IMG/VR virus record: IMGVR_UViG_3300045927_000142
Location: 1 to 37,644 of that record
DNA length: 37,644 nt
Reading direction: 5' to 3' (one strand)
Origin: a virus
In this document: one piece after another, positions 1 through 37,644 of the stretch
How positions within the stretch are numbered: the first letter of the stretch is position 1
Layout: each line of letters starts with the position of its first letter
Translations under genes and position numbers: made by a program
The notes under the pieces: generated by a model
Database searches by the model: none
What the model saw: the letters and a program-made list of their open reading frames with translations, nothing else
What the model was told of the DNA's origin: nothing

Positions 1-2194
1 CCTCGAACGAACCTTTCATCTTCTCCGCAATGTTGAACTCGGTGTAGATGCCGTCCTGGTCCGCGAACTCACTGAGCACCTGCAGCTCGATCTCTTCCGA
101 GATCCAGGCACACCACGGCCCGAGCGAATCCTGGTAGAGCTGCTTATGCTGTTCCTTGACGTTGGAGTTGTGGACGACGACGCCTTCCGCAATGAAGGAA
201 TGCGTGCCGTCCACGGTCAAGTCATACACGAGTTCCTGACGCGCCTGGTGATCGATCCGCACAATGGCGGAGAGTTGCGTCGTCTCACTCGCGAATCCGC
301 GGCCCCCCTGCCACGGATAGCGGCTGCCTTTGCGGGCGAAGGGCTGGCCCGCCGCCATCCGGCGTTGATACTCGGGCGTATGTGACCCGATCCGCCGATT
401 CGCGCCCGGATCCGAGCAGGTGAAGTTCCACTGAGAGAACGTGGCCATCCGGCCCGTCGGTAATCGTGTCTGCCCCCGTTGCTCCCGCAGGTTCGTCACG
501 GGCACCCCGACACTGAGGCAGAGATGCCAGATTTGTGAGAGCAACGGGCGACTGCACGAACTGAAGCTCAATCGCCCCAGGCGATCGCAACTGCCATCGG
601 CATCGAGAAATCCGCGCAGCAGCGCGAGACGATGCGTCGCCGGCAAGCCGAAGATCCAGCCCGGCACGCGCTTGGTGCGCGCGGTCCCGCTGAATCCCAG
701 CCGATCGAACTCACGCCCCACCGCAACGGACATCACCCGCGTCTGCCGGCCGCCTTCGATCAGATGCACGGGGCCACGAGTACCCGGGAGCTGATCCGGC
801 AGAAGCAGATCCTGCAACGTGCGGCGATACGCCGCCATGTACGGGGCGTGTTCGCCGCGCGCGATCTGGAGACCCACGGGCTCCCCGTGGACGCAGGTCA
901 CGTTCCCATCGCCGAGCAGCAGCCCACAGAGTTCAAGGAATCCCTCCGTGGCCAGCCGTCCCGAGGGCAACCGGACGGTCGCCTCCTCAAGGGTCGGCAG
1001 TTGACGGAGCACCACGATGGTGTCCCCCACCTGGAGTTCGCCCGCCGGGACATACTGCGTGACCCACTGCTTGTGAGGCCGGCCGAGGGCGCGACGGTGC
1101 CCATCCGCCATCACCACGACCGGCGCCGGCTGCAGGACGGCGCGACGGGCCAGCACGCGATGCCGGCCATTGAGCCGCAGCGTGCGGTTGCCCGTATGCA
1201 GGCGCAAGATCTCGTCCTGGCCGGTACACCCCGATCGCGTCACCAGACTCAACGTCCAGTCGCCGGCCTCGGTCAAACTCCACACGCGATCGCCACGGCG
1301 AACCTCTGAAATCGGCCGCGGGCCCTCCTCGGTGAACACTTCGGTCTCGCCCGGCAGACAGAATGTCGCGTGGTCGAGAATGCCCACCATCGGCTGCGGA
1401 ATGTGATACGCGGCCGCACATTCCTCGCGCGACAACTTGCGCGCGCCGATGTATTCCGACTCTCGAGCCGAGTGCGAAACGGGCCGGAACGTCATGCCCT
1501 CGTCGAGCACCGGCGTCATGCCCGCGTTCGCGACGCCCGAGTACCGCATCTGCCACTGCTCGCGGAACGCCTGCTTCTGCTCGGGCGTCCACGGCTTCGC
1601 CGTCGCCGGCCGTTCGATGATGCCCTCGAACCGCGCCGCGTTCGTCCAGTACGCCGCCCGATATGCGGACGCCGCCGACTCTTCCGCCAGCGTCTGTCGC
1701 AAGGTTTCGATCGGTGAGAGGCCGCCGATCGGATCGTCAGGATTGAAACCGTGAAAGTAGACCACCGACGATGGGTCCAGCTCGCGCGGCGGCTTGTTGT
1801 CCGGCACGTACCAGAAGAACGCATCGGGCCGCAGCCAGCCCGACACTTCCACGGTCTCCGGCGGGAGTCGCAGTAACCCGAGGCGACCCGTCCGCTGGTC
1901 CTTCACCTTCAACCAGAACGCGCAAAAGTAGATCCCGAGGTCCTGCATCAAACTCTCGAACAACTTGTAACGGGTGACCCCCGGAAACGGGTGATTGATC
2001 GTCTGCTGCAACTGATGGTCATGCGCACGCAATCGGTCCGTGTCCGACACGCGACGAAACACGTGCAACCCGAGCTGCGCCAGGTTTCGTGCGAGGAAAT
2101 CCACGCAGATCCGAATGTTCGGTTGTGTCCGATAGAACGCCGCGTAACTCGCGGCCGACCACGGCGTGTGCGTCGCCGTCGCGTAACTGTTCAC
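1..2194 (-). CDS. HK97-type portal protein interrupted by an intein (3' end off the window)
   Basis: The portal forms the dodecameric ring at the capsid vertex through which DNA is packaged. This copy starts at a GTG at 2194 and stays open to base 1, where it leaves the window without a stop. Its extein parts match the complete portal at 36365-37582 almost residue for residue. Between Phe (codon 1361-1363) and Ser (codon 164-166) lies an in-frame insertion of exactly 398 codons that is absent from the other copy. Removing it restores HATF-SNVKEQHK as in the uninterrupted copy. The gene lies directly downstream of the terminase block on the same strand, as usual for HK97-like head modules. Seen directly: the open frame, the clean insertion and the near-identical flanks. 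Inferred: that this is an allele of the same locus and not a second portal gene. Confidence 0.9.
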   Translation of the reverse strand, partial: MNSYATATHTPWSAASYAAFYRTQPNIRICVDFLARNLAQLGLHVFRRVSDTDRLRAHDHQLQQTINHPFPGVTRYKLFESLMQDLGIYFCAFWLKVKDQRTGRLGLLRLPPETVEVSGWLRPDAFFWYVPDNKPPRELDPSSVVYFHGFNPDDPIGGLSPIETLRQTLAEESAASAYRAAYWTNAARFEGIIERPATAKPWTPEQKQAFREQWQMRYSGVANAGMTPVLDEGMTFRPVSHSARESEYIGARKLSREECAAAYHIPQPMVGILDHATFCLPGETEVFTEEGPRPISEVRRGDRVWSLTEAGDWTLSLVTRSGCTGQDEILRLHTGNRTLRLNGRHRVLARRAVLQPAPVVVMADGHRRALGRPHKQWVTQYVPAGELQVGDTIVVLRQLPTLEEATVRLPSGRLATEGFLELCGLLLGDGNVTCVHGEPVGLQIARGEHAPYMAAYRRTLQDLLLPDQLPGTRGPVHLIEGGRQTRVMSVAVGREFDRLGFSGTARTKRVPGWIFGLPATHRLALLRGFLDADGSCDRLGRLSFSSCSRPLLSQIWHLCLSVGVPVTNLREQRGQTRLPTGRMATFSQWNFTCSDPGANRRIGSHTPEYQRRMAAGQPFARKGSRYPWQGGRGFASETTQLSAIVRIDHQARQELVYDLTVDGTHSFIAEGVVVHNSNVKEQHKQLYQDSLGPWCAWISEEIELQVLSEFADQDGIYTEFNIAEKMKGSFE
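167..1360 (-). mobile_element. Intein with LAGLIDADG homing endonuclease inside the portal gene
   Basis: A 398-residue protein-splicing element. It begins with Cys1 (CLPGETEVF, block A) and ends VVVHN before extein Ser+1, so it has the penultimate His397 and terminal Asn398 of a class 1 intein. The N-terminal Hint region runs to about residue 120. Its block-B-like segment is LRLNGRHRVL, with Asn where Thr is usual and His67 kept. A two-motif LAGLIDADG endonuclease follows: LCGLLLGDG near residues 144-152 (Asp151) and LRGFLDADGS near 248-257 (Asp255). Block F is VYDLTVDGTHSFIAEG, residues 378-393. The frame has no stop and both endonuclease Asp are present, so splicing and homing are probably active. 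Known family: Hint/DOD inteins in phage packaging and replication proteins. The intein-free allele is at 36583-37644. Confidence 0.95.
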
Positions 2195-2240
2195 GCTCCG
2201 CGCGGCCGGCTTGTCACCGACTCGTTGGAATGAGCCGAGA

Positions 2241-2492
2241 CTACGAACGATCGGCATCAGGAAAGACCTGGATGAAGGCGACGTTCGCGCGATCGACGTG
2301 CACCTCTCCGTCCATCGGAGAACCCGCACGCCCTTCCTGCGGTTTCCACTCAGACACGCGCCGCAGCACGAGCCAGCGTCCACGGCTGCACCACAGCACG
2401 CCGTGCAGACCCATGTCGGGAGATTTCAGATTGACGACGACCGTCCGCAGCAGACTAGGCGGACGCCACCAGGTCAACCACGTCCAGTCCAC
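2241..2492 (-). CDS. Small hypothetical protein upstream of portal
   Basis: 83 codons from a GTG. The product begins with an aromatic, Trp-rich stretch and continues as a beta-like region (TVVVNLKSPDMGLHGVLW) followed by alternating hydrophobic residues. I recognise no domain. It lies between the ribbon-helix-helix gene and portal on the same strand, with 47 bases to the portal start. That position suggests co-expression with the packaging genes; the start choice is uncertain. Confidence 0.6.
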   Translation of the reverse strand: MDWTWLTWWRPPSLLRTVVVNLKSPDMGLHGVLWCSRGRWLVLRRVSEWKPQEGRAGSPMDGEVHVDRANVAFIQVFPDADRS

Positions 2493-2525
2493 CGCTCGGC
2501 AGAATGGGGCGACCTTCGCGAGCCG

Positions 2526-2711
2526 TCAACTTTCTGACTTTTTAGTGTGGGCGCGCAGCGCTCGACGAATCACTTCCGCAACGCTGATGCCTTCGTGCCT
2601 GGCTTCGCTGCAGAGTTCGTCGTACTGGCGGGACGGGACACAGACATGCGCACTCACCGACTCGTCGTCCTCATCCAATCGAGGCCGGCCCATCGACACC
2701 GTGCGCTTCAT
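2526..2711 (-). CDS. Small ribbon-helix-helix-like DNA-binding protein
   Basis: 61 residues. The middle reads SVSAHVCVPSRQYDELCSEA (a beta strand followed by a helix) and then EGISVAEVIRRALRAH, the strand-helix-helix pattern of short Arc/MetJ/CopG-type proteins, in which a dimer puts a two-stranded sheet into the DNA major groove. The C-terminus is Lys-rich. It sits between terminase and portal and could regulate the head operon or act as a packaging accessory. The fold assignment is by pattern only. Confidence 0.65.
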   Translation of the reverse strand: MKRTVSMGRPRLDEDDESVSAHVCVPSRQYDELCSEARHEGISVAEVIRRALRAHTKKSES

Positions 2712-2741
2712 CCCGGGCCGCTATTCTAAATCTGGCGTCAT

Positions 2742-2954
2742 CTAATGTCGAGCCTGGTCGTCGTCAGGCCAGCGAACGAGCGCCGTGTCGACGTCGACCC
2801 GCCCGACACCCATCACCACGCCGGCGAGATGAATCAACCGACACGCGATCCACATGCGCCACCGAGCCGTCCTCCTGCCCGTCACGTGCACGCTCAGCGA
2901 CACCTTTCGCATCACGTCCCGCATGGGAATCTTCACGTCGCCCAGGTTCGCCAC
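2742..2954 (-). CDS. Conserved small phage protein between terminase and portal
   Basis: 70 residues, starting three bases after the large terminase stop. It has a basic amphipathic centre (RKVSLSVHVTGRRTARWRMW) then a hydrophobic helix (ACRLIHLAGVVMGVG). Short basic-plus-hydrophobic proteins of this kind are often found between TerL and portal in HK97-like phages. The function is unknown to me; the hydrophobic helix might be a membrane or packing segment. Confidence 0.65.
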   Translation of the reverse strand: MANLGDVKIPMRDVMRKVSLSVHVTGRRTARWRMWIACRLIHLAGVVMGVGRVDVDTALVRWPDDDQARH

Positions 2955-2957
2955 GAC

Positions 2958-4646
2958 TCACCAAACTACCACGAGGTCCGGGTCTTCCGCCGGCGGCACG
3001 GACGTCGCCCGGAGCATCAGGTTCCACGCAATCGCCAGGGCAATCACCGGGTCGATGCGCCCTCGACTCTTTTTCTTCACCGGATAGATGTTGTCCTTCC
3101 CGTCGCGCTGCACCACGGCATTGCCCACGCAATACAGCATCAACGGGTCATCCTGCGCGTCGACCTGGCCGGCGAGCACCGCCGCCTCGAGCGCCAAGCA
3201 CCCGCTCGACATCGCCTGATAGGACTGCGCCACCTCGAGAATCTCGTCCTCCGCGAACCCGTCGTCCTGCACCAACTGCGTCACGAGCTGGTCCGCGTGC
3301 CACGGATCGAACCCCACCTTCACGATCGTGGCGTGCGTGCGCAGCCACACCAGCGTCTCGCGAATCACCCGGTGATCGATGCGGGTGCCCGGCACCGTGC
3401 GCAACCACCCGTCCTCGACCCACTGCGGATAGGGCGCACGGTCGCGCAGGCCACGCTCGGCCAACGTCTCGTCCGGTGTCCACATCCAGCGGAGCGTGCG
3501 CCACGTGTCATGGTGCTCCGTCGGCGGAAACAACGCGACCAAGGCCATCAGGTCATTCTTCGCCGCCAGATCGACGCCGACGTAACAGGACTCCCCCGCG
3601 AGGTCTTCGTAGGTCCAATCGGTGTGCTGGCCACGTCGCCAGCCGTCGAGTGACAACCAGGGCGAGCTGGCCATGATCCACAGGTTCAGATGCTTCTGTT
3701 TGTACGCGGCGGCCGCACCTGGCATCCCGAGCGCCTTGATCACTTTGTTCTTCAGGTCGTCCGGCTTCACCGATACGCCGTAATTGGGATTCGCTTTCCG
3801 CGCCGTCGCTTCCGTCGTCCAATCGTCCTCCGGGTCGGCGTGCGCAATGAACGCGAAGTACGTCTCGTCCACCAGCGTGCGTTCCAAAATCTGGCACGCA
3901 TAATCGTGTTCCTGGCCCCCGGGCGACACCGGATTGTCGCCGGCCGTCGTGATCTTGAAGACGAGCGGCTGCCGACGCGCGCCCGTCGCCGTCTCGAGCA
4001 CGTCGATCATCCCGCGATCTTTGTAGGCGTGCAGCTCGTCCAGGCTGATGAAGTGCGGGTTCAGCCCATCCGTCGAGTCTTCATCCGCGCCCAGCGGCTC
4101 CAGCTTCTGCGCCGTTTCCTCGCGGTGCAGGTTCACCGTCAACACACTGATGCGCGAGCGCAGACCGCTCGACATCACGAGCCGCCGGCAATCGCTCCAC
4201 ACGATCTTGGCCTGGTCGCGCTTCGTGGCCGCGCAGTAGCCCTCGGCTCCTGGCTCTCCGTCGAAGAACGTCAGATAGAGCGCCATCACCGCGTCTTCGA
4301 GCGACTTGCCTTGCTTGCGCGGCAGCTCGTTGTAGGCGTGCCGGAATCGACGGAGCTCGGTCTCGACGTGGACCCACCCGACAATCGAGCCGAGGCGGAA
4401 CTGCTGATGCGGTTCCCACCGGATGAATTGTCCGGCCCACTCGCCCTTGTAGTGTTTCAGCCGCTCACCGAACCGCAGGAAGCGCTCGACCCGCGCGAGG
4501 TCCAGGCGGAACGGAAACGCGCGCGAGTCCTCGGCCTCGCGATCGCGCAGGTGCCGCGCACACGCGAGCCGATGGTACTTGCCGGCCGGAATCCGCCCAC
4601 GTGTGACGTCTCGCGCGTATGCGTCAATCGGATGTCGCCGCCTCAT
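2958..4646 (-). CDS. terL: Terminase large subunit (TerL), HK97/Terminase_1 type
   Basis: ATP-driven DNA-packaging motor and headful nuclease; it docks on the portal. From Met at 4646 (MRRRHPIDAYA, the usual beginning of this family) the protein is 562 residues. Visible parts: the N-terminal ACARHLRDRE motif; a deviant Walker A (RKQGKS, about 110-115); Walker B with catalytic Glu (ISLDELHA, Asp203 Glu204); coupling motif ITTAG near 232; and the RNase-H-like nuclease acidic residues at GVDLAAK (Asp359), FDPW (Asp447) and RGRIDP (Asp532). The frame is open for 31 more codons upstream (to 4739), but those are low-complexity and overlap a possible antisense gene, so I prefer 4646. It is followed closely by small genes and portal. 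Confidence 0.93.
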   Translation of the reverse strand: MRRRHPIDAYARDVTRGRIPAGKYHRLACARHLRDREAEDSRAFPFRLDLARVERFLRFGERLKHYKGEWAGQFIRWEPHQQFRLGSIVGWVHVETELRRFRHAYNELPRKQGKSLEDAVMALYLTFFDGEPGAEGYCAATKRDQAKIVWSDCRRLVMSSGLRSRISVLTVNLHREETAQKLEPLGADEDSTDGLNPHFISLDELHAYKDRGMIDVLETATGARRQPLVFKITTAGDNPVSPGGQEHDYACQILERTLVDETYFAFIAHADPEDDWTTEATARKANPNYGVSVKPDDLKNKVIKALGMPGAAAAYKQKHLNLWIMASSPWLSLDGWRRGQHTDWTYEDLAGESCYVGVDLAAKNDLMALVALFPPTEHHDTWRTLRWMWTPDETLAERGLRDRAPYPQWVEDGWLRTVPGTRIDHRVIRETLVWLRTHATIVKVGFDPWHADQLVTQLVQDDGFAEDEILEVAQSYQAMSSGCLALEAAVLAGQVDAQDDPLMLYCVGNAVVQRDGKDNIYPVKKKSRGRIDPVIALAIAWNLMLRATSVPPAEDPDLVVVW

Positions 4647-5161
4647 GTCGCGTCGCGCTCGGTCGGCTCGGCGGGTCGGTGACGTCGGCCCGGAAGACGA
4701 TCGCGGCCCGCCAGAACGCCAAAAAAGGCGGCTGGCCAAAAGGACGGGTCGGACGAGGCTGGGCCTCAGGCTGGCAGGGCGTCAGGCTGGCCGGCCGTTC
4801 GGTCATAATCTCGTTATTGGGGGGGGTGCTTGACGCCTCAGTCGATGCCCGTTTCGGTTTCTCCCACTTGGGCCTAGGATCTGGAGCGCCGCCAGTTCAT
4901 CGGCCACCTTCCGCACAATCACTTCAGCCACGTTATACACGCCGCCCTCCAACAAGCCCGCCGCGAGTCGCAGTTGATCGGCGGGCGAGAGGACTACGAC
5001 CCGATCGTGTAAGTCCTGAACCGTCGCCCGCATTTCAGATCACCAGCCGCGTCGGAATCGCCGCGATCTCCGGCGACGGTTTTACCTGCTCCCGTAAATC
5101 CCGTTCAAATTCCGCCGCGTTGTCATCCTCATGCACGGCAATGCGCGTGAGAAAGGCGTAA
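4619..5161 (+). CDS. Possible antisense small protein with GKKGG-type motif (weak)
   Basis: A rightward open frame crossing the TerL start. Residues about 14-40 read ALGRLGGSVTSARKTIAA and then RQNAKKGGWPKGR, which resembles the basic motif (GGxxxSxxKxxAARxNxKKGGRPK) of many short phage and plasmid proteins. The same motif occurs in the protein at 6297-6587. The first roughly 60 codons could be a real small gene. The rest of the frame is antisense to the genes at 4803-5268 and looks like a shadow, so the true end is unclear. It could also be chance in a GC-rich region. Confidence 0.3.
   Translation: MRQSDVAASCRVALGRLGGSVTSARKTIAARQNAKKGGWPKGRVGRGWASGWQGVRLAGRSVIISLLGGVLDASVDARFGFSHLGLGSGAPPVHRPPSAQSLQPRYTRRPPTSPPRVAVDRRARGLRPDRVSPEPSPAFQITSRVGIAAISGDGFTCSRKSRSNSAALSSSCTAMRVRKA
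4803..5033 (-). CDS. Small hypothetical helical protein
   Basis: 76 residues. The first about 50 form a helical region (LHDRVVVLSPADQLRLAAG, then VAEVIVRKVADELAALQIL). The remaining tail is basic and Pro-rich and reads unlike coding sequence; a run of eight C at its end is a possible frameshift spot. It starts one base after the stop of the gene at 5035-5268 and so is translationally coupled to it. Function unknown. Confidence 0.55.
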   Translation of the reverse strand: MRATVQDLHDRVVVLSPADQLRLAAGLLEGGVYNVAEVIVRKVADELAALQILGPSGRNRNGHRLRRQAPPPITRL

Positions 5162-13391: not shown

Positions 13392-14153
13392 TCATGAGAC
13401 TTTCGCCCGAGGTATACTTAATCGACGATTAAGTATACTTTTGCGTTTCTTCACCGAGATCAGCGTGATTCCCCAATGCTTCGCTAAGGCCTTTTCATTG
13501 CCCTGAAACGTCGCGAGATCCCGCGCCCATTGTTCATGGTTTCCCGGCGGCCGACCGTCACGCTGGCCGGTGCGCTTTCGCAATTCATCAATCACGTAGC
13601 GGATTTCGGTCGCATTACTGGTCCGCCGCACAATGCTCTCGACCAGGTGGTCGAGATGCGCGCGTCGATCCCGCACGGTCCGTCGACGCCGCTCCTGGGC
13701 CCGTTTCTCAAACGTGAGGCCGATCTTGGCGCGCGTAATCGCGCGACTCCCAACGGGGTGCTTTCCCTCCGTCCACCCGTGGCGCGACCAGGAGGCGGTC
13801 AAGCTGTCCGCCGCATGGGGATGGGCGGCGATGACGGCGTCAAGGGATCGGCGATAGCGGGTCTGACCCGTGCGCGACCGATCCATCGCGCTCGCCAGTT
13901 CGCTTCGTTCGTCCGGTGTCACATAGAAGCGCGCGACATCGTGGGCATCGACCGCTTGCAGTGCCAAAAAGTAATCAAATTCGCCAGGCTGAAACTGATA
14001 GACGCCGGTCGCGTCCCGGTAGTGGCGCCAATTCGCTGACCGCAACATCGCCATCGTCGCGTGCGTCAGCTCCCCGAGGCGGCCCATATTGGGGACGGCG
14101 CGTGCGAAGCGGTCGACCTGCTCGCCGTGCAGACGGAGCGCTTTGGTGTTCAT
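13392..14153 (-). CDS. Unknown protein coupled to the HNH-helicase gene
   Basis: 253 residues from ATG 14153, overlapping the helicase stop (ATGA), so the two are almost certainly made together. Mostly helical and basic. N-terminal half: RFARAVPNMGRLGELTHATM, an aromatic patch around YRDATGVYQFQPGEF and YFLALQAVDAHD. A strongly basic helix follows (FEKRAQERRRRTVRDRRAHL). The C-terminal end, WARDLATFQGNEKALAKHWG followed by ITLISVKKRK, resembles a helix-turn-helix. A 27-base perfect palindrome lies in its last codons. No family recognised; DNA binding is likely. Confidence 0.7.
   Translation of the reverse strand: MNTKALRLHGEQVDRFARAVPNMGRLGELTHATMAMLRSANWRHYRDATGVYQFQPGEFDYFLALQAVDAHDVARFYVTPDERSELASAMDRSRTGQTRYRRSLDAVIAAHPHAADSLTASWSRHGWTEGKHPVGSRAITRAKIGLTFEKRAQERRRRTVRDRRAHLDHLVESIVRRTSNATEIRYVIDELRKRTGQRDGRPPGNHEQWARDLATFQGNEKALAKHWGITLISVKKRKSILNRRLSIPRAKVS
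13412..13438. repeat. 27-bp perfect palindrome within the 3' end of a coding region
   Basis: GTATACTTAATCG, a single A, then its exact reverse complement: 13-base arms with a one-base centre, AT-rich in a GC-rich genome. It lies about 20 bases before the stop of the gene at 13392-14153 and encodes the symmetrical peptide SILNRRLSI. No T run follows on either strand, so it is not an intrinsic terminator. A dimeric regulator site is the simplest reading; the HTH-like end of the same gene's product is a candidate binder. Confidence 0.85.
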
Positions 14154-16261
14154 GATTCGTCTGCCGTTTGCGCCCAGCGCGGCAACGGCGTCCCCGTGTC
14201 CTGGCAATACCGACGAATGCGCTCCAGAGCGACCATCCGGGCGCGCTGGAGCTGGTCCGGTGTGGCATCGTCGAGTTTACGAATGCTGGCTTGCCGGTAG
14301 ATGTCGGCAATAAAATGGTCGACCGGTTGCCCGCCGTGCTTCGCTGGAAACTGCGCCCACCAGCGACTCGCCAAGATCACCTGCTGTCGAATCAGGGTGT
14401 GATGCTCGCGGGCGGTCAACGGCCGCGTCTGGGGTGCTGGCCGATCGACGACCGCCACGGGCCGCACAGCCCCGACCGCGATCGGTTGATCGAACGGGCG
14501 GGCTCGATTGTACCGATCGAGGAACTCCGCGAAGCGCGGCCAGAGCGATTCCGGGAGATTCAGGTCGCGGAGGATGGGCGTCAGCAGATCCTGCACTGCC
14601 GGATCGATATCGAACGTGCCGGCCGTCGTGATCGCCGACACGACTTCCAGCGCGGCATCGCGCACCCCGACGAGATCCTTATCAGGAAATCCGGGACCTT
14701 CAGGTCCTTGGGGTCCACGAGGTCCCTCCGGTCCTGGCGGCCGGACTTCAATGTCATGGACCATCGGCGCCAGGATGTTCGTAAATTCCTGGATCAGCTC
14801 CGGGATATCCGGCAGGATGATCGCCGTCGTCAGCGGATACCCGAGCCGCTCACGTTCCCACGTCGTCACTCGTTGCCCGCGCGCCACGACCTGTCGGATG
14901 TACTGCGCCGTGAGGACGTTGGTGGCATAGGTCACGACGCAAATGTCCGGACAGTCATAGCCTTCGCCCGCCATCCCCACTGTGCAAAGCACGCCCACGC
15001 GGGTCTTTTTGCGGAAATCTTCGAGACGCCGGTACGCGTCCTCGCCGTCATCGGAGACCACGCATTCGGCCAAAGGCTGTAACCGGCGCGCGACCATCTG
15101 CTGATCGACTTCCTTCGCGAAGGCTCTCGCCATGTCCTGACGATGCGTCACAATCAGCGCCTTGACCGGGGCGCCGCGACTGTCTCGATAGCGGCGTTGG
15201 AGCTGATCGAGTGTGACGGCCACTAATTGTGTGATCCATTCGTCGCGCAGATTAAGACGGCGAAGGGCGACACGTGCCGTGTCATCGGTGAGATCGGCGA
15301 TCGCCGTCTCGGTGACTTCCGCGGTCTTGAGATCGACGATGTCGACCGTCGCGCCCACCCGAAAGAGGTCCGGCGGCCGCAAGAGACCTTCGCGCACCAG
15401 CCGTTCGGAATGAATCGCGTAGGTCGCAATGGCCTGAATGCGTGGCTCCCCATGTTCGCCGACGACATCCTCGTATTGCACGGTCGAAATACGTTCGGCG
15501 GGTGAGGTGCGGAACAGCGTCCCGGAGAGATTCAGGACGTGGACATTGAGTCCTGTCCGCAAGTCCCCCACGAGTTCGCGGATGGTTTTTGCCCAGGCGG
15601 CGCCGCCGGTGTCGTCATTGACTGGCTGTCCGAGATGGTGGACTTCATCGAGAATCACGAGTGTCGACGTGTCGCGGAGGGCATCGCGATGCCGTTCACG
15701 AACCGTGGGTGTGAGTAGGCCCTGGTACGTGGTACACACGCCATCCATCCGGCTGAGTTCGCGCCCGCTGCCGCGGGCTCCCTCATGCACGTCGAGGGCG
15801 ATATGACAGTCGTTCAGGAGCGCCTTCGCCCATTGATTCACGAGCGGCACGCGTGGGACGACGACGAGCACGCGGCTCCACAGCGCCGCGTCTTGTCCGA
15901 CCGCGAAGACGTTGCCGGCGAAGAGTGTCTTTCCGCCACCTGGTGCCGCCATGACGGTCGCGACGCGCTGCATCGTGATCGCTTCCAACACGATCGCGAG
16001 CGCTTCCTCCTGCCAGGCCCGCAACTGGACCCGCGTGTCCCGGACATCTCGATTGCCATATCTGAGATTGCACGGGGCACACCAAGCCTCGAGATTCGAC
16101 ATGATTGGCGGCCCGCCGTGGCTCGCCGCGCGGAGATGCGCGACGTGAAAGGTCTCGAGGTCGATAGGTGCCTGGCAGCCTTGCCGTTGGCACTGGCTCC
16201 CGCTCAAAAAGAACAGTTGCCGGCGGTCACCGGGGGAAATGCGCCGAGAATACCGTGACAT
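14150..16261 (-). CDS. HNH nuclease-SF2 helicase fusion with a collagen-like linker
   Basis: 703 residues. Residues 15-75 form an HNH/zinc domain: Cys24, Cys29, HVAHLRAASHGG (His39, His42), NLEAWCAPCN (Cys61, Cys64). A superfamily 2 helicase follows: AAPGGGKT (105-112), DEVH (205-208), SGT (246-248), TVGMAGEGYDCP (428-438) and QVVARGQR (457-464). Residues 508-526 are Gly-X-Y collagen-like (PGPEGPRGPQGPEGPG). A helical C-terminal domain of about 175 residues remains unassigned. The layout recalls restriction-type or defence helicase-nucleases more than a replicative helicase. It lies next to the integrase, the usual place for accessory cargo, and is coupled to an unknown basic partner. A role in defence or superinfection exclusion is inference. 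Confidence 0.85.
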   Translation of the reverse strand: MSRYSRRISPGDRRQLFFLSGSQCQRQGCQAPIDLETFHVAHLRAASHGGPPIMSNLEAWCAPCNLRYGNRDVRDTRVQLRAWQEEALAIVLEAITMQRVATVMAAPGGGKTLFAGNVFAVGQDAALWSRVLVVVPRVPLVNQWAKALLNDCHIALDVHEGARGSGRELSRMDGVCTTYQGLLTPTVRERHRDALRDTSTLVILDEVHHLGQPVNDDTGGAAWAKTIRELVGDLRTGLNVHVLNLSGTLFRTSPAERISTVQYEDVVGEHGEPRIQAIATYAIHSERLVREGLLRPPDLFRVGATVDIVDLKTAEVTETAIADLTDDTARVALRRLNLRDEWITQLVAVTLDQLQRRYRDSRGAPVKALIVTHRQDMARAFAKEVDQQMVARRLQPLAECVVSDDGEDAYRRLEDFRKKTRVGVLCTVGMAGEGYDCPDICVVTYATNVLTAQYIRQVVARGQRVTTWERERLGYPLTTAIILPDIPELIQEFTNILAPMVHDIEVRPPGPEGPRGPQGPEGPGFPDKDLVGVRDAALEVVSAITTAGTFDIDPAVQDLLTPILRDLNLPESLWPRFAEFLDRYNRARPFDQPIAVGAVRPVAVVDRPAPQTRPLTAREHHTLIRQQVILASRWWAQFPAKHGGQPVDHFIADIYRQASIRKLDDATPDQLQRARMVALERIRRYCQDTGTPLPRWAQTADES

Positions 16262-16286: not shown

Positions 16287-17531
16287 TCACGCGGATTCCT
16301 TCTTCACGACGAGGTGCAACACGGCGGCGGGCTTCACGGGCGACTCGGGGCACCAGGCGAGGCGCATCTTCGCCACGGCCTCGGCGACGAGCTCCGGCAC
16401 AGCGGACTTCAGATACTGCTCGGTCGTCTTGATGTTGCTGTGCTGCGCGTACTTTTGCGTGGCATAGATGTCCTTTGACTGGCGCAGCAGCTCGGTCAAG
16501 AGACTGTGCCGGAGATCGTAGGGACGGCAGTTCTTCGGCACGGCCACGAGGAACTGCTCGAGGAGCTCGGTTTCGCCCCCGTCGCGCAGTTCGCGCTCGA
16601 CCCGCGTGAGCGCGCGCTGCCACGCCTCCCGCGGCGACGACTGGGCGAACCGGCCCCACAACCCCGCCGCGTCGAAGTCGCGGAGCGCCGCCACGGCCGG
16701 CGGGAGCAGGTCGACCCACTGCCCGGCCGCGCCGGTCCCCTTCTGTCGCGGCGGCTGATAGAGCTTCTCGTCGCGGAAGTTCACGTGGCGGCGTTCCAGC
16801 CGCATTAAGGACTTCGGCGGCAACCCCGTCCACGCCATCACCCGCAGGCGAATCTTCGTCGCGCTGACCCGCGACCGCGGCTGGCCCTTGATGGATCGCC
16901 CGAGATCCGCCAAGGCGGCGAGCAGCCGCATGACGATCGGGATCGGGATGGCGCGCGGCTCCGGCCGGCGTGGAGGGCCGACCGGCCCGATCTGGTCCGT
17001 CGGCAGGGCCACATCGAGATCGCCGTCGGGGTTGAGCTCGCGCTCGAGGACCTTTGCGAGCGCGCGACGGCGATGCTTCACCGTGGAGACCGAGAGCTTC
17101 GCCTTCCGCCAGGCCAGCAGTTGCTCCCGCACGTGCGCGCGGCGGATCTGCTCGAGCGGGATCGCCGCCATGGGCTCCCGCCGCCACGCCGCCAGGAGAC
17201 ACCGCAGATCCTCGATGGGGCGATCGGCATCCGTGATCGGGGGGGATGGCTTCGGATGATCGGCCATCCAGCGATCGATCGCCGCGCCGAGCGTCCCGGC
17301 CGCGCTGCCGTCGGTGGCCCGTTGGCGGCGCAGATCCTCGAGCAGTTGCAGACGACACTTCACGAGCTCGCTACAGTTCTTCTTCGAGTAGGGAATGCCG
17401 TCGTCGTCGACGAGGGGAAATCGGGCGCGCGCTTCCCGCAGCGCGGCGCCAGATCCAATGCGGGCCAGCACGGTCACACCGTGCGCGTCGAGGTAGAGCC
17501 CCTGGCCGATGGTCTGCCGGGTGCGCGTCAT
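16287..17531 (-). CDS. int: Tyrosine-type integrase
   Basis: 414 residues. Catalyses site-specific insertion and excision between attP and attB. N-terminal arm-binding and core-binding helices span about residues 1-190. The catalytic domain begins near 195: KIRLRVMAWTGLPPKSLMRL (226-245), RPYDLRHSLLTELL (336-349, Arg341 His342), YAQHSNIKTTEQYL (361-374, His364 and nucleophile Tyr373). The first catalytic Arg, normally in TGLR, is replaced here by Pro, as in its degraded relative at 11812. Its stop lies 25 bases before the helicase start; upstream it overlaps the coiled-coil gene by ATGA. No attP core could be identified by eye. Confidence 0.9.
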   Translation of the reverse strand: MTRTRQTIGQGLYLDAHGVTVLARIGSGAALREARARFPLVDDDGIPYSKKNCSELVKCRLQLLEDLRRQRATDGSAAGTLGAAIDRWMADHPKPSPPITDADRPIEDLRCLLAAWRREPMAAIPLEQIRRAHVREQLLAWRKAKLSVSTVKHRRRALAKVLERELNPDGDLDVALPTDQIGPVGPPRRPEPRAIPIPIVMRLLAALADLGRSIKGQPRSRVSATKIRLRVMAWTGLPPKSLMRLERRHVNFRDEKLYQPPRQKGTGAAGQWVDLLPPAVAALRDFDAAGLWGRFAQSSPREAWQRALTRVERELRDGGETELLEQFLVAVPKNCRPYDLRHSLLTELLRQSKDIYATQKYAQHSNIKTTEQYLKSAVPELVAEAVAKMRLAWCPESPVKPAAVLHLVVKKESA

Positions 17532-19712: not shown

Positions 19713-20720
19713 ATGACGCCTGAACCGAAGGTCGCCATCTTCTGCCGCTGTGGCGCGGCCTGGTATGGCTGGCCGGCGGTCGACAACGCCGTGATTGACG
19801 CCCATCGCCTGCGCTGCGGGCCGATGATCCACGCACACGAGTTTGCGCGGACCTTTAGGATTCGGTGGCCGAAGACCTGGACGCCTGACGAGTGCGCCGC
19901 CGCGTCCGCGCATCCCACGTTCAGACAACGGACTCAAGGACCTCGGAGGAACGCTATGCGAATCGGACTCGGACTGCTGATCGTCGTCGTGAGTCTCGTC
20001 TACGTCCCCCAGGCGGAGGCGACGCTCCTCCTGGCCGGGAGTGCCGGGACGGACGACTTCTGCGCCTCGGACAATAACACCGGGTGCAGCTTCGGGACCG
20101 TCCTGCTCGACCTCGACCCCACACTCGGGGTCCTCTCGCTAGCAGACGCGACGGCCGGCGGTCTCCTGGTCTCTGGCTCCTTCCATCTCGCCGTGGCCGG
20201 CCCGACCCAGAATGTGCTCGACTCGGGTTCTCTCTCCATCGTCAACACGACCGTTGCGCCTGTCACGGCCACGGTCGCCGTGGGTGCGACCGATTTTGTG
20301 GGGCCAAGCACCGCCTTCGACGCGTCCGGCAGCGGGACCTGGCTCTTTGCCGAAGGCAGCTCGATCCTCTACACCTGGTGGAATGACCCGGCCAATCAGC
20401 AGGGCGCCGAGGATCCGACCGATACCCCCGGCAACCTCTTGGATGCCTTCGTGGATGTCGCCGGGTTCGGCGTGGACTCCTTCTCCCATAACGTGGACGG
20501 AACCCTGCTGTTCCCCGATCCGAGCCTCTTTTCGATGACCCTGGGATTCCAGTTGACCTTGGGGGCGGGTGACCAACTGACCTCCCGCGGGCAGAATCTC
20601 GTCAAGCCCGTCATCCCGGAACCGGCGACGGTCACGCTCCTCAGCCTGGGCCTCCTCGGACTGGCGCGCGTGGCTCGGCGTGTCCGCCGCGCGGAGGAGC
20701 GCGCGCGTCAGTGCCGATAA
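19713..20720 (+). CDS. Secreted PEP-CTERM protein in frame behind a small Cys domain
   Basis: A 335-codon open frame. Residues 1-70 (VAIFCRCGAAWYGWPAVDNA, RLRCGPM) duplicate the protein at 9227-9436. At Met82 (19956), directly behind a strong ribosome-binding site, a typical secreted protein begins: MRIGLGLLIVVVSLVYVPQA signal peptide, a Gly/Thr/Ser-rich beta domain, and a C-terminal PEPATV motif, hydrophobic helix (LLSLGLLGLARV) and Arg cluster. That C-terminus is the PEP-CTERM sorting signal handled by exosortase in Gram-negative, exopolysaccharide-producing bacteria. No stop separates the halves. The secreted form (254 residues) is probably translated from 19956. Confidence 0.8.
   Translation: MTPEPKVAIFCRCGAAWYGWPAVDNAVIDAHRLRCGPMIHAHEFARTFRIRWPKTWTPDECAAASAHPTFRQRTQGPRRNAMRIGLGLLIVVVSLVYVPQAEATLLLAGSAGTDDFCASDNNTGCSFGTVLLDLDPTLGVLSLADATAGGLLVSGSFHLAVAGPTQNVLDSGSLSIVNTTVAPVTATVAVGATDFVGPSTAFDASGSGTWLFAEGSSILYTWWNDPANQQGAEDPTDTPGNLLDAFVDVAGFGVDSFSHNVDGTLLFPDPSLFSMTLGFQLTLGAGDQLTSRGQNLVKPVIPEPATVTLLSLGLLGLARVARRVRRAEERARQCR
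19944..19958 (+). promoter_or_regulatory. Ribosome-binding site and internal start of the PEP-CTERM protein
   Basis: CGGAGGAACGCT directly precedes ATG 19956, an ideal Shine-Dalgarno spacing. It decides the start of the secreted protein inside a longer open frame and implies two products, the fused and the secreted form. Confidence 0.7.
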
Positions 20721-27299: not shown

Positions 27300-30200
27300 T
27301 CACGCGGCACGCAGCCGATTCGTCAACCCATGCCTAGCCGTCAACGCCGCATTGATTTTCTCGGCGAGCCGCTGCAAATCTCCGGGCGTGTCGAAGAAAC
27401 TGCCCTGCGCGTAGACGTTGATCGTCACCTGCGCGCCGCCCATCCCGCCGCCGCCGCCCCCACCGCCGCCAGGTTTCACGGCAGACTGCGGAATCACCGC
27501 TTCCTTGCCGTGCAACATCACCAAGGTCCCGCGTCCGAAATCCTCGAATCCCTTCGTGCCGCCCTGATAGCCGGGAATCGAGCCGCCACTGTGCTTCGGT
27601 GGGCCTTTGTCCTCATACCTGATTTTGATCTTGACCTCGTCGGGAATGTCCTCGACCTTGTTCTTGGTTCGGTCCAACTCCACGCCGAGCGAGCGCGCCA
27701 GCACGTTCGCCAGGTCATCCACCGACGAAATCAATTTCTCGAACCCCTCGCTCATCGTCATCGCGAACGAGATCCCCGCGTCCTCTAGGTTCTTCACCTT
27801 CTTGCCGCTCTTGTCCGTCAGCTGGCCCATGTCGGCCATCTGCTGCAGCATCGGTCTCATCGCCGACGGGACCTGCACGCCCATCTTCCGCGCGTCGCCC
27901 ACGTACTCGTTGACCGCTTCGGCCATCTTCTTCGTCACCGTCGTGTTCTTCACGCCGGCGGCCGTCAGCAATTCGAAATCCTTGTACAACTGCGCCGCTT
28001 TCTTATCGAGCTCGCCCTTCGCGAGCGCAGGACCCAGTTCTTTCAGCGTCAACCCGTATCGCTCTGCCGCCGCGTGCACGTCGGCAATCGCCGTCTGCTC
28101 CTGCTGGAACAGACTGTTCAGATTGGCGACCGCCGCGTTGTACTCCTCGACCGTCTCCGCGCGGAACATCTGGTCCATCAGCTCTTGCGAGCCGGTGAGC
28201 CGCTGCACGCTGGCGGCCAAGGTGTTCGCCCCACCAGCCGCGGACAGGAACTTGTCGCGCAGCGGATTGACCTGCGCGCTTTCCTCGTCGCGGCCGAACA
28301 GCGGACCGAGCAGCTTGCCGATGCCTTCGACGGCCGGCCCGAGCAGCGACCCGATCATCGGCACCATGCCGCTCAGGGCTTTCCCGATCTGGCCCATCAT
28401 GCCGCCGCTGCCGAACATCTCGCCGATGCCCTGCTTCATCGACTTGGCCAGGCCGGAGTCTTTCCCGAACAACATGTTCCCGAATCCCGTCAGCGCCGAC
28501 TGAATCGCACTGCCGCCGCCCTGGATCGCGGCCAGCACGTCCTTCCCGAACTGCTCGCCCAGATACTCGGAGGTCAACTGCGCAAAGCTTTTGAACTCGA
28601 TGCCTAGTTGTTTCAACGTCGGCGGAAACTGCTCGACCGCCGCGAGCGCCTTCCCGGCCGCCGGCGGGAGTCCTTCGAGCGCCCACACCGTCTTTTCGAT
28701 GGCTGGCACCAATTGCTCGTGGGCCGAGAGCGCAACGCCGTACGACGCGCTCCCTTCCAGCTCCGCCATCGCTTTCTTGTTTTCCTCAGCCAGTTTTTTC
28801 GTCGCCGCCGCCGCCGCCGTGTCCGCATCGGCCAGCCGCTTCAGCGCGGCCTCCGATACGCCCATCTGCGTCGCAATCGTGCCGAGCGACACCTTCAACG
28901 CCATCAGCGACCGGGCCTGCTCTTCCTGGGCCGCCGTCAGCGGAATCGTCGCCGCCTCGATTTCAGCCGTGGCTTGCGCGAGTTTTTTGGCCTCGGCCGC
29001 CGCAGCTTCCTGCTGTTCCTGGAGCCGCTTCGCGTTCTCGGTGCTCAGGTTCGCCGCGTTCGCGTTCTGATTCGTCTCCTTCGTGAGCTCGCGCGTCTTC
29101 CCGATCGTGGGCGTCAGGTTATCGGCCAACTTGAGGACGCGCGCCGACATGCCCTCAATGCCCTGCTCGAACTGCGCGGCCATGTCGGCGGATTTGCCGA
29201 TGTCCTGGGCGAATCCCTCGAGCGTCGTTTGCGAGGCTTGCAGCAGGTCGGCCATCTGGCGCGCGCCGAGATTGAACGGCGCCATCGCCTTCGCGGATTC
29301 GAGCAGAATGCCGTGGACCTTCACCAAGCCATTCGCAAAGGCTTGCCACCCCCGCATCTGGACCCGCAGGACCGACAGCACCACGCCGAACATGTCGAGC
29401 AGGATGCCGAAGGCCCGCACGAGGCCGATCACGACCTCGGACACGAGGTTCATCACGTCCTGGCTGACCTTGAAGTCGCCGCTCACCCCCGTCAACGCTT
29501 TGCCCACGTTTTCGATGGCGCTCACGACGGTCTGATTCTGAATGACCGTGCGCCCGACCGCCTCCTTCACGTTGTCCCACTGGTTCGCCAGCTGCTGCAA
29601 CCGCCCCGCATACGTGTTCGCGGCGGCGGCGGCGCGCCCCTCCATCTGCGTGTTGATTTGGTCAACGATGTAACTGAAGCCCTCGGCCTTGACGCGCGAG
29701 TCGTCGAGCTGAATGCCGGCCTTCTTGAGCGCCGCCGTCTGCCCGATGGCGGCTTTGCCGACGAGTTCAGTCCCTTTCGTGAGGTCGCCACCGAACCGCT
29801 GCGCGAGATTCGTCGCCGCCGTGAGCGCCGCATTCATGTCCTGCGGCATGACGCCCATCGTCTGCAGCAGCGCGGCCGACGCCGTGAGCGCATCGTCGGA
29901 ATAGGTCGTGATGCCTTCGAGGGCCGAAATGTAGCCCTGGTAGGCGGCAATGACCTCCGGCACCGCGACGCCCTGCGCGGCCATCGCCGCCGTGAGATCG
30001 GCCTGGGCCGCTTCCGCATCGGCCGCGGATTTCACGCTATCGGAGAGAAAGCCGACAATCGCATCAACACCGGCCTTGACGACGGAGATCACCGCCGCCG
30101 CGCTCACCAGACCGAGCGCCCACTTCTGGACCGCGGCGGCTCCCGCCGTGAATGCCGCCTGCGAATCCTTCGTACTCTCGGCGAGCTTCTTGGCCTCGGC

Positions 30201-33663: not shown

Positions 33664-34043
33664 CGCTTCGGTTTCGGAGCTGGCGGTGTCGGTGTCGCCG
33701 GCGTCGGCCTGGGCGCTGGCGGTGTCGGTGTCGCCGGTGTCGGCCGAGGCTCCGGCGGTGTCGGTGTCGGCGGCATCGGGTGATCGACCGATGGTGGTGT
33801 CGGCACGGTCGCCGCGCGAGTCACAGGCGCGCGCCGATACGTCGCCGTCGTGAACGACGGGACAGGCAGCACGCCAGTGTTCGCCGCCGCATCCTGCGCG
33901 CGCTGCCGCGCGATGAGGTCCACCCAACCAGGGCGACGAATCGGCACTTCGACGTTGCCCGCGTCGCCCTTGCAGGTGCAGAGCGGCGCGTCGCAAATAA
34001 TGCAACGCGCCGTCGTCGGCTGAAACGTGATCGCGAACCGCAT
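33660..34043 (-). CDS. Cys-pair protein with Pro-Thr repeat tail
   Basis: 127 residues from ATG 34043 (a GTG is one codon earlier). RCIICDAPLCTC gives a metal-binding-like motif, followed by VPIRRPGWVDLIARQRAQDA. The C-terminal 40 residues are a tandem repeat (PTPATPTPPAPR). Located between capsid and connector, where decoration proteins can occur; no homology recognised. Confidence 0.65.
   Translation of the reverse strand: MRFAITFQPTTARCIICDAPLCTCKGDAGNVEVPIRRPGWVDLIARQRAQDAAANTGVLPVPSFTTATYRRAPVTRAATVPTPPSVDHPMPPTPTPPEPRPTPATPTPPAPRPTPATPTPPAPKPKR
33672..33780. repeat. Tandem 36-bp repeat encoding the Pro-Thr tail
   Basis: Three near-copies of a 36-base unit beginning GGCGCTGGCGGTGTCGGTG (plus strand). 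Translated leftward they give the Pro/Thr/Ala repeat at the end of the gene at 33660. Read in the other frame on the same strand it gives a Thr-Asp-Thr-Ala repeat, a shadow. Confidence 0.75.
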
Positions 34044-35290
34044 CACACGGCGGCTGGCGTCAGTCCGCTGACCTGGCCGAACGCGGCCGGCCGATAGACT
34101 GCGAGGGCCAGCCGTTCCTCTGCGCGAATCGCAACCAGGTTCTTCACGAAGAAATCAGCGTGACTGTTCGTCGCGTCGATGCGGATTCCACCGTGTCGGA
34201 AAATCTGGCCGCCCGTTTTGAACGCGCCGACCCACCCGAACCCCTGCGGCTGATTCGGCGTGACCACGACGGGCAATCCCCACAGGTTCGCCGCCGTGAC
34301 CGATCCCGCGAACGGCCCACCGGCCAGGTACTCGCCCGTCGAGGTCTTCGACAACACGATGCCGTTCCAATTCGCCGGGTGCAGGATGTACGCATCGGGC
34401 ATCAAGAGCGAGGCCGCATACACCGTCATGCTCTGCTGAAACAGCACGTCCGCATTCGTCGCCGGGTCCACGCGCGCGAGCGTCGCCGTCAGGCCCACGC
34501 GATTCTTCAGGCCGAGAATGTTCGGTGCGATGCCGTCACCGTTCAGCACCTGGTCGTCCTCTTCGAGCTTCAGACCGAACGTCAACCGCGCGTCGACGTA
34601 ACTGCGAATCTGCGGCTCGTCCTCCAACATCTCCTCGCTGATGGGAATCCAATGCGCCAGCTTGCGCACCGGGTCCGTCGCGGAATCAAAGCGCAGCGTG
34701 GACTCGGGTTTCGCCGCGCCCTCGAGCACCGCCGCCGCCGCATTCGTGAACACCGACTCGCGCATGTACACAATCGACGTCGATGAGGTCGTGCCCTGCG
34801 CGAACAAATCCGCGACCGTCGGCGGCTGCACCGCGAGCGGCAGGATTCCCGGCTGATATTGCGGAATCAGGAGCTTGCCGCCGGAGGCCGGGTCACTCGT
34901 GATCGTCTCGGCCAGGAACTCAAAACTTGGCGTCGACCACTGCGCCTGCTGCCGGTGCAGGTGCTTGCGCACGAAGTTGTACGCCTCGGACTGCACGAAC
35001 TGCGCGCCGATGCTCAGGCTCCGACGCATCCCGCTGAAGGACGGCACGCGCGCGGTGTTCCCCGTCACGCGCTCCAACTGATGAATCAAATCGCGATCAC
35101 CCGTCGCCCGATCGAGCTGCGCTTCCAGGTCGCGGCATGACGCATTGATGCGCTCGATGTCCGCGCGCTCCGCGTCCGTCAACAGCCGATTGCCCTCCGC
35201 GTCCGCTGCTTTCGCATACCTGTCGTACAGTGCCAGCCCCTCCTGGCGCTTCGATTCAAACTCCTGCTCAAGCGTGGCGATCGTGGCCAT
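34043..35290 (-). CDS. Major capsid protein, HK97 fold
   Basis: 415 residues. The first about 110 are a charged coil (QEFESKRQEGLALYDRYAKA, DIERINASCRDLEAQLDRAT), the scaffolding delta domain removed by the protease. The capsid core follows: DPASGGKLLIPQYQPGILPL, KLAHWIPISEEMLEDEPQIR, DDQVLNGDGIAPNILGL, AYILHPANWNGIVLSKTSTG, VVVTPNQPQGFGWVGAFKT, the standard order for HK97-like capsid proteins. The start overlaps the protease by 23 bases. Confidence 0.93.
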   Translation of the reverse strand: MATIATLEQEFESKRQEGLALYDRYAKAADAEGNRLLTDAERADIERINASCRDLEAQLDRATGDRDLIHQLERVTGNTARVPSFSGMRRSLSIGAQFVQSEAYNFVRKHLHRQQAQWSTPSFEFLAETITSDPASGGKLLIPQYQPGILPLAVQPPTVADLFAQGTTSSTSIVYMRESVFTNAAAAVLEGAAKPESTLRFDSATDPVRKLAHWIPISEEMLEDEPQIRSYVDARLTFGLKLEEDDQVLNGDGIAPNILGLKNRVGLTATLARVDPATNADVLFQQSMTVYAASLLMPDAYILHPANWNGIVLSKTSTGEYLAGGPFAGSVTAANLWGLPVVVTPNQPQGFGWVGAFKTGGQIFRHGGIRIDATNSHADFFVKNLVAIRAEERLALAVYRPAAFGQVSGLTPAAV

Positions 35291-36356
35291 GATGCGTACT
35301 CCTGCGCGGGCGAAATCCCCACGCGAACAAGAACCGTTCCGTGTCGCGGAGAACGCCCCGCGCCTCTACCTCTGGACCCACCGTCTCTCCGACCACGCGC
35401 GCCGGCGCAGCGCTCGTCTGCTGCGCACGTGCGATCGTTTCTTCCAAGGTCGCAATGCGATCGATCATGCCGAGCGCGAGCGCGTCTTCCGCGTACTTGA
35501 CCTCGCCCGTAAACCGCTCGCGCACCTGGCTCTCCGGGACGCCGCGACCCTCAGCCACGTCCCGCATGAACCGGTTGTAGCGCTGACCCAACAAGTGATC
35601 GATCTGTGCCTTCGCTTCGACCGACAGCGGCTCGGCTTCGTTCCCGTCCACCTTGTGCGGACCCACCGACAAATAGGTTCGCTTGATGCCGGCCTGCTCG
35701 AACGCTTTCGACAGGTCGTCGTGAATCGTGTACACGCCGAGCGACCCGACCGATGCCGAGGGCGACGCGATGATCTCCGTCGCATTCGACGCGACCCAAT
35801 ACGCCGCCGAGTGCATCCGAAAGTTCGACAGTGCCCAGATCGGTTTGCGTACTCGAGCGGCCCGCAACACCGCGGCGGTCTCGGGTGCGTTCATCACCAT
35901 CCCGCCCTCCGAGTCCACGTCGAGAATGATCGTGCCCACTTCCGGGTCCGCGACCGCCGCTCGCACGTCGCGCTGCAATCCTTCAAACGTGGTCATCCCG
36001 CTCACGTCGCTGACCAGGTTCGCGCGCGGGGCGATCGTGCCGTGCAACGGAATCACCGCCACGCCTCGGCCGGTCATCACCGACGGCTTCGGCTGCGGCG
36101 CGAACGCGAGCTCGCTCCCGGCCGAGACACCGCCGGCGCGGCGCGTCAGAATCGCCACAATCGTGGGCAGAAACTTCGGATTGATCGCCCACACGTCCGA
36201 CGCCGCTAACGCGAGCACGTGATCGATCGCGTGCGCTCGCGAGTGATCGATCGGCTCTGGCACAACCGCTTCCTTGCCGTGCAGCATGGCCAGGGTCCCG
36301 GACCCGAAGTCCCGGTGCCCGTTCGTGCCGTCAGTCTCATCGAGCATCAGCCTCAT
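35268..36356 (-). CDS. S49-type prohead protease with a tape-measure-like N-terminal peptide
   Basis: 362 residues. Cleaves the capsid delta domain. Core: GRGVAVIPLHGTIAPR, VGTIILDVDSEGGMVMNAPE, SNFRMHSAAYWVASNATEII (Ser183 in the family's nucleophile position), ASPSASVGSLGVY and VGPHKVDG (Lys235 as the second member of the Ser-Lys dyad). Residues 10-34 (GTNGHRDFGSGTLAMLHGKE, AVVPE) are nearly the same as the tape measure C-terminal peptide. That extension is not needed for the fold. Nine bases follow the portal stop; the end overlaps the capsid gene. Confidence 0.9.
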   Translation of the reverse strand: MRLMLDETDGTNGHRDFGSGTLAMLHGKEAVVPEPIDHSRAHAIDHVLALAASDVWAINPKFLPTIVAILTRRAGGVSAGSELAFAPQPKPSVMTGRGVAVIPLHGTIAPRANLVSDVSGMTTFEGLQRDVRAAVADPEVGTIILDVDSEGGMVMNAPETAAVLRAARVRKPIWALSNFRMHSAAYWVASNATEIIASPSASVGSLGVYTIHDDLSKAFEQAGIKRTYLSVGPHKVDGNEAEPLSVEAKAQIDHLLGQRYNRFMRDVAEGRGVPESQVRERFTGEVKYAEDALALGMIDRIATLEETIARAQQTSAAPARVVGETVGPEVEARGVLRDTERFLFAWGFRPRRSTHHGHDRHA

Positions 36357-36364
36357 ACCGTCTC

Positions 36365-37582
36365 CTATGCCGCGTCCTCCGACGACACCAAGGCCTCGCT
36401 CGTCGATTCCTCCGGCGCCGCTTCACTCGGTGTCGTCTCCGCACCCATCGTCATGTTGAGCGGGGCAGCCAGGGCGTTCGCAGACGGATCGTCGTGGATG
36501 GCTGGCAGGTTCAACCGCGCGCGTCCTTCGTTCGCGGTCATGATCGGCCGGCCCACGAGTCTCGCGAGCGACACCGCCTGGTCCTCGAACGAACCTTTCA
36601 TCTTCTCCGCAATGTTGAACTCGGTGTAGATGCCGTCCTGGTCCGCGAACTCACTGAGCACCTGCAGCTCGATCTCTTCCGAGATCCACGCACACCACGG
36701 TCCCAGCGAATCCTGGTACAGCTGCTTGTGCTGTTCCTTCACGTTCGAGAACGTCGCGTGATCCAGGATGCCCACCATCGGCTGTGGAATGTGATACGCC
36801 GCCGCACATTCCTCGCGCGACAACTTGCGCGCGCCGATGTACTCGGACTCTCGAGCCGAGTGCGAGACCGGCCGAAACGTCATGCCCTCGTCGAGCACCG
36901 GCGTCATGCCCGCGTTCGCGACGCCCGAGTACCGCATCTGCCACTGCTCGCGGAACGCTTGCTTCTGCTCGGGCGTCCAGGGCTTCGCCGTCGCCGGCCG
37001 CTCGATGATGCCCTCGAAGCGTGCCGCGTTCGTCCAGTACGCCGCCCGATACGCGGACGCCGCCGATTCTTCCGCCAGCGTCTGCCGCAGCGTTTCGATG
37101 GGTGAGAGGCCACCGATCGGATCGTCAGGATTAAATCCGTGAAAGTAGACCACCGACGACGGGTCCAGCTCGCGCGGCGGTTTGTTGTCCGGCACATACC
37201 AGAAGAACGCATCAGGCCGCAGCCAGCCCGACACTTCCACGGTCTCCGGCGGGAGTCGCAGTAACCCGAGGCGACCCGTCCGCTGGTCCTTCACCTTCAG
37301 CCAGAAGGCGCAAAAGTAGATCCCGAGGTCCTGCATCAAACTCTCGAACAACTTGTAGCGGGTCACTCCTGGAAACGGGTGATTGATCGTCTGCTGCAAC
37401 TGATGGTCGTGCGCACGCAATCGGTCCGTGTCCGACACGCGCCGAAACACGTGGCACCCGAGCTGCGCCAGGTTCCGCGCGAGAAAATCCACGCAGATCC
37501 GAATGTTCGGTTGTGTGCGATAGAACGCCGCGTAACTCGCGGCCGACCACGGCGTGTGCGTCGCCGTCGCGTAACTGTTCAC
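36365..37582 (-). CDS. HK97-type portal protein, intein-free allele (complete)
   Basis: 405 residues from GTG 37582. IRICVDFLARNLAQLGCHVF, NHPFPGVTRYKLFESLMQDL, FHGFNPDDPIGGLSPIETLR, GMTFRPVSHSARESEYIGAR and EECAAAYHIPQPMVG are the ordered motifs of HK97 portals. The site occupied by an intein in the copy at 1-2194 is empty: HATF runs directly into SNVKEQHK (36746-36752). The C-terminus is acidic and Ser-rich. Placed upstream of the protease and capsid genes. Confidence 0.93.
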   Translation of the reverse strand: MNSYATATHTPWSAASYAAFYRTQPNIRICVDFLARNLAQLGCHVFRRVSDTDRLRAHDHQLQQTINHPFPGVTRYKLFESLMQDLGIYFCAFWLKVKDQRTGRLGLLRLPPETVEVSGWLRPDAFFWYVPDNKPPRELDPSSVVYFHGFNPDDPIGGLSPIETLRQTLAEESAASAYRAAYWTNAARFEGIIERPATAKPWTPEQKQAFREQWQMRYSGVANAGMTPVLDEGMTFRPVSHSARESEYIGARKLSREECAAAYHIPQPMVGILDHATFSNVKEQHKQLYQDSLGPWCAWISEEIELQVLSEFADQDGIYTEFNIAEKMKGSFEDQAVSLARLVGRPIMTANEGRARLNLPAIHDDPSANALAAPLNMTMGAETTPSEAAPEESTSEALVSSEDAA

Positions 37583-37644
37583 GCTCCGCGCGGCCGGCTT
37601 GTCACCGACTCGTTGGAATGAGCCGAGACTACGAACGATCGGCA
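36583..37644. repeat. Terminal repeat with bases 1-2256 (intein-free allele)
   Basis: Matches 1-2256 once the 1194-base intein is left out (1062 bases aligned). The first 106 bases (from 36583) and the last about 130 (to 37644) are identical or nearly so. In between there are scattered, mostly synonymous differences, densest around the intein site (11 in the 82 bases nearest it). A window closing a circle through two alleles would look exactly like this. Confidence 0.9.

Follow-up and report, generated by a model that had tools for sequence, protein, structure and literature searches.

A class-1 LAGLIDADG intein in an HK97-family phage portal gene, with an intein-free portal allele on the same contig

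Introduction

Inteins have been described in the portal genes of several cultured phages. Six are reported from cluster C1 mycobacteriophages (PORT, POG1190; Kelley et al. 2016, PMC5050341), and the portal of Gordonia phage Lahirium is annotated in GenBank (MK494109) as 'portal protein, contains intein'. Here we analyzed a 37,644-nucleotide uncultivated virus contig (IMG/VR record IMGVR_UViG_3300045927_000142, positions 1 to 37,644; hereafter the window), which also carries an intein in its portal gene. The C1 inteins share this host function but differ from the window in portal family, as judged through ET08, a phage of Bxz1 (C1) type; no PF04860 portal was found in ET08, which places the C1 intein site in another portal family. 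Lahirium and other members of Woesvirus resemble the window in having a portal intein, with occupied (Lahirium, Sticker17) and intein-free (MrWormie) alleles in close relatives. However, the Lahirium and Sticker17 portals are of the Mu type (PF06074) and are interrupted at two other sites, YLE/SQM and VAH/TQV (here and below a slash marks the insertion point). Their inserts, of approximately 354 and 275 amino acids, are both missing in MrWormie, and neither was recovered when the window intein served as protein query at a threshold of E 0.001. Together, the closely related Woesvirus isolates with portals L110, L111 and L112, which grow on Gordonia terrae, cover two different intein sites as well as an intein-free allele, and they constitute a laboratory-ready system for portal homing. 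Portals of the T4 type (L060 and L061) also bear inteins, as do L070 and L080 judging from their flanks. In these four the two ends of the intein meet the portal at YG/S(x)LE, and L060 and L061 have an additional HNH-containing insert near residues 200-300. Outside phages, the yeast VMA1 intein (PI-SceI) shares with the window intein its combination of Hint and LAGLIDADG domains, its fold and an Asn in block B, but the two are only about 13% identical and the host gene of PI-SceI encodes a cellular ATPase.

Results

The interrupted portal gene, allele A, is read on the minus strand from an ATG at 2257..2255 as far as the contig edge (position 1). The 299-residue N-extein (1361..2257), which ends in LDHATF, matched PF04860 (Pfam, 1.3e-62), PHROG 2662 (6.7e-92) and also PHROG 12, making the host gene an HK97-type portal; 55 residues of the C-extein, starting SNVKEQ, are seen (2..166, minus strand) before the contig edge. 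Between the exteins, translation from 1360 to 167 gives 398 codons that are free of stops and in frame with the portal on either side, exactly the span assigned in the first-pass annotation, with the strand now specified as minus. The insert begins with CLPGETEV and ends with GVVVHN, followed by Ser at +1. It thus has the ends of a class-1 intein (Cys1, a His-Asn terminus and Ser+1), and its two LAGLIDADG motifs, LLLGDGN (Asp151) and FLDADGS (Asp255), both retain the Asp, so that every one of these initially noted features was present in the translation. It does not belong to class 3, since Cys1 is present and block F reads YDLTVDGTHSF, without Cys.

The insert was then compared with profile and structure libraries. 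Searched alone, as the first-pass annotation had proposed, the 398 residues matched Intein_splicing (4.6e-9) and LAGLIDADG_3 (1.1e-6) in Pfam, both exceeding the cut-offs, and TIGR01443 intein_Cterm (1.4e-8) in NCBIfam; with the whole precursor as query, the Intein_splicing match lay slightly under the Pfam cut-off. An AlphaFold2 model built from a 20-sequence alignment had a pLDDT of 90.8 and a pTM of 0.89, replacing an earlier and poor three-sequence fold (pLDDT 65.8). Its top Foldseek matches in the PDB are complete endonuclease-bearing inteins, namely TliVMA (1.2e-20), PI-PfuI and PI-SceI. The Hint splicing halves comprise residues 1-117 and 356-398 approximately, and the two-motif LAGLIDADG endonuclease lies between them (residues ~118-355). 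Weak matches to Hint and Hint_2 raise the idea of a Hint domain of the bacterial intein-like or hedgehog type, which would cleave but not ligate, but the insert carries a complete intein signature, including Ser+1, the His-Asn end and a LAGLIDADG domain; taking it out of the sequence restores a conserved portal exactly, and its complete relatives keep the frame at either junction. We consider such a domain very improbable, and chance is no serious alternative for the insert. It is a class-1 intein and adds a new member to an already known kind of element. From its residues, it is probably splicing-competent, and its endonuclease is apparently intact.

To place the intein among relatives, IMG/VR was scanned. 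The window intein as query returned two relatives, and a three-sequence alignment as query returned approximately 20 more, which are 38-78% identical to it. The host gene of the close relatives is again a PF04860 portal, and the insertion point is nearly constant, within (A/S)(T/S)(F/Y) followed by SN (ATF/SN in the window). The intein of L046 lies about three residues upstream of this common site, and that of L055 precedes the Ser of a differing portal motif (RST/SYGRGIEQ), where the alignment is ambiguous. Some members are not independent, being from the same virus or contig (L043 with L044, L003 with L056 and probably L048 with L083). Family members are in frame on both flanks wherever complete. 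Of 32 portals retrieved with the empty allele as query, the motif is uninterrupted in 31, and the remaining one has a variant, NANFSN, also uninterrupted. Within the inteins, position 1 is Cys in 18 of the 19 members with a complete N-terminus and Ser in the other, while both catalytic Asp residues (Asp151 and Asp255), His67 and Asn398 are invariant in 20/20 sequences. The endonucleases of L048 and L053 contain extra segments and that of L050 lacks a 20-residue stretch containing KRVPGW, which fits elements at differing stages of a homing cycle. In L003, a terminase (243-2777, plus strand) has an intein-like insert too, bounded as GNGK/ALALDTP...ATHN/T, with Ala at position 1. Outside IMG/VR, INPHARED phages searched with the intein gave distant matches only, the best (28%) in a tape measure protein from Gordonia phage BearBQ, and in a scan of 84,980 species genomes pieces of archaeal endonucleases were the only matches, none of them a close relative.

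These results, with the profile matches and the confident fold match, bear out the identification of an endonuclease-bearing intein in a phage portal. The suggestion that portal inteins are much less common than others is weakened by some 20 of them at one site in one IMG/VR scan and by the C1 and Lahirium precedents. In a literature mostly outside subscription journals, we found no description of ATF/SN in PF04860 portals as a shared intein home.

Block B of the window intein (residues 64-67; 1160..1171, minus strand) reads NGRH, with Asn64 in place of the usual Thr and with His67 present, as the first-pass annotation had stated. It had also proposed that this Asn may alter splicing control. 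Asn at this position is not special to the window copy: 18/20 family members have it, the exceptions being L046 and L003 with Thr, and the corresponding residue of the yeast VMA1 intein is Asn76 (PMC6805012). Among other phage inteins examined, Thr is commonest and Asn also occurs (e.g. L058); no literature was found on block B under the name 'NxxH'. The block-B Asn thus appears to be a trait of the family and a variant already known elsewhere, with no sign of special control in these comparisons.

At the opposite contig end lies an uninterrupted portal, allele B (minus strand, 37642..36365), a placement that the first-pass annotation had not given. It runs from codon 2 to the stop codon (36365..37642; PF04860, E 3.4e-80), the contig edge falling at nucleotide 2 of its ATG. 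The empty site, TTC/TCG encoding Phe/Ser, is at 36746..36751 (minus strand), corresponding to the allele A junction 1361/166, and the surrounding sequence is GGCATCCTGGATCACGCGACGTTC/TCGAACGTGAAGGAACAGCACAAG. The spliced sequence had been described as equal to the uninterrupted allele. At the protein level this holds for 352/353 residues, the sole change being Leu64 in A and Cys64 in B, but identity is not exact, and the DNA differs at 50/1062 positions. As 48 of these differences are synonymous and two nonsynonymous, the exteins of allele A are strongly constrained, although this constraint may be older than the insertion.

Both portal copies lie on a single contig and both are strongly constrained, as would be expected from a tandem duplication in one genome in which one copy was invaded, perhaps tolerably because the other supplies portal. 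The copies are, however, at opposite contig ends and each is truncated there, and their shared start is exactly 127 bases. The first 127 bases of the B contig end are identical to A, the overlap expected at an assembly-graph fork with k=127 (assembler and k being presumed), and the last 106 bases of the A contig end are identical to B; that this second identity is 106 bases and not 127 is unexplained by the simplest bubble picture. Closing the contig into a circle at the portal restores the usual order of terminase, portal, S49 protease and capsid: the large terminase, with TerL ATPase and nuclease domains and an uncertain start codon (2958..4739), lies upstream of portal A, and the S49-type head protease (35268..36356) and the HK97-type major capsid protein (34043..35290) lie downstream of portal B, all on the minus strand. 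In addition, a second portal is absent from the 18 other intein-bearing IMG/VR records, several of which are fragments. A duplication is therefore quite improbable, and likely a poorer account than two strains; the best reading of the contig is a single phage genome that was opened at a strain bubble. From this arrangement, the sampled population probably included both intein-plus and intein-minus phages. The intein-bearing portals of L037, L041, L045 and L054 are also at contig ends, like that of the window, and assemblies may break at the portal where occupied and empty alleles are mixed.

Elsewhere in the genome, the N-terminus of the S49 protease, DFGSGTLAMLHGKEAVVP, repeats a motif from the C-terminus, DFGRGTLVMLHGKEAVIP, of a long tape-measure-like protein (27300-30578, minus strand), and a phage-encoded protein at 19713-20720 (plus strand) matched the PEP-CTERM sorting motif of Pfam (PF07589, E 0.00017). 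A tyrosine integrase adjoins a helicase with an N-terminal HNH domain (16287-17531 and 14150-16261, minus strand); the integrase suggests that the window phage is temperate.

We also compared the histories of inteins and portals. Many portals that are merely 20-30% identical carry inteins that are 50-57% identical. The window, L041, L049 and L051 form one clade of the portal tree (100/98), whereas the intein tree groups the window and L041 with L037, L038 and L040 (99/95), and the intein data reject a clade of the window, L041, L049 and L051 (AU p 0.0007, for groups chosen after the first trees were inspected). This conflict indicates that the intein has moved between distant portals. The closest comparison is L041 (IMG/VR contig 3300047160_001591), an uncultured phage with the identical site, a portal of the same clade and an intein 78% identical to that of the window, although the two portals are just 59% identical.

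Comparison with L041 was also used to assess constraint within the intein. The endonuclease has a dN of 0.142 and a dS of 1.39, and the splicing halves a dN of ~0.24 and a dS of ~1.1; dS (~1.0-1.4) is close to saturation, so that the dN/dS comparison is a guide only. By this measure the endonuclease is the most constrained part of the intein, and its maintenance under constraint suggests that homing is ongoing. An intein in decay, in which splicing is retained since the portal is needed while the endonuclease is defunct, would represent a stage expected in a homing cycle, and L050, without its 20-residue KRVPGW stretch, could exemplify one. For the window, which keeps both motifs, the catalytic Asp residues and KRVPGWIF in an endonuclease so constrained, we regard decay as unlikely.

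Finally, we considered the position of the site in the portal and the differences around it. When the gene transfer agent portal 6tba was aligned with the window portal, GDATY/ANYAE fell at the site. The order of elements around it is a helix, the clip region, a helix, ATFSN and a long helix. Together, this order and the alignment probably put the insertion within or close to the tunnel loop, which lies between the stem and the long wing helix. Papers on the structures of related portals describe this layout and do not give a residue range for the tunnel loop. Within 21 nt either side of the insertion point, alleles A and B show seven synonymous differences against 1.7 expected (P 0.0014), and wider windows give similar enrichment (30 nt, P 0.0026; 45 nt, P 0.0035); with no place fixed beforehand, the enrichment is not significant (scan P 0.33-0.44). 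The flanks of A and B have SNPs at -4 and +3, which makes the pair unlike a recent homing event that left long tracts of co-conversion. Foreign flanks acquired through co-conversion, or silent escape of allele B, might explain the clustered changes, but the pattern is suggestive only. A broader version, in which the pair is a snapshot of an arms race, with B resisting the endonuclease through silent target changes or the intein having imported foreign flanks, and with splicing acting as an assembly checkpoint, seems to us doubtful.

Discussion

These observations provide the basis for a model of the window locus, to which we give a probability of roughly 0.9: a full-length, class-1 mobile intein resides in an HK97-family portal, its precursor self-splices, its endonuclease homes, and two strains were co-assembled. 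We predict that the portal is translated as an intein-containing precursor, in which Cys1 would initiate an acyl shift and the chain would be transferred to Ser+1. Asn398 would then cyclise and the intein depart, restoring an intact portal, which would leave little cost to the host gene. The LAGLIDADG domain would cleave intein-free portal genes at the conserved ATF/SN codons, and repair templated by the intein-bearing copy would copy the intein in. Such homing could extend to distantly related phages that enter the same cell. In the sample, intein-plus and intein-minus phages of one population would have been co-assembled, breaking the circular map at the strain bubble.

The conserved ATF/SN of HK97-family portals is a recurrent home for one intein family, whose host is a structural protein obliged to form a ring. 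If the site is indeed at the tunnel loop, an insert that has not been spliced out should obstruct that ring of twelve. The best value of the locus lies in its pair of occupied and empty alleles: the window holds a natural matched pair, probably from one population, with which homing and silent resistance become testable.
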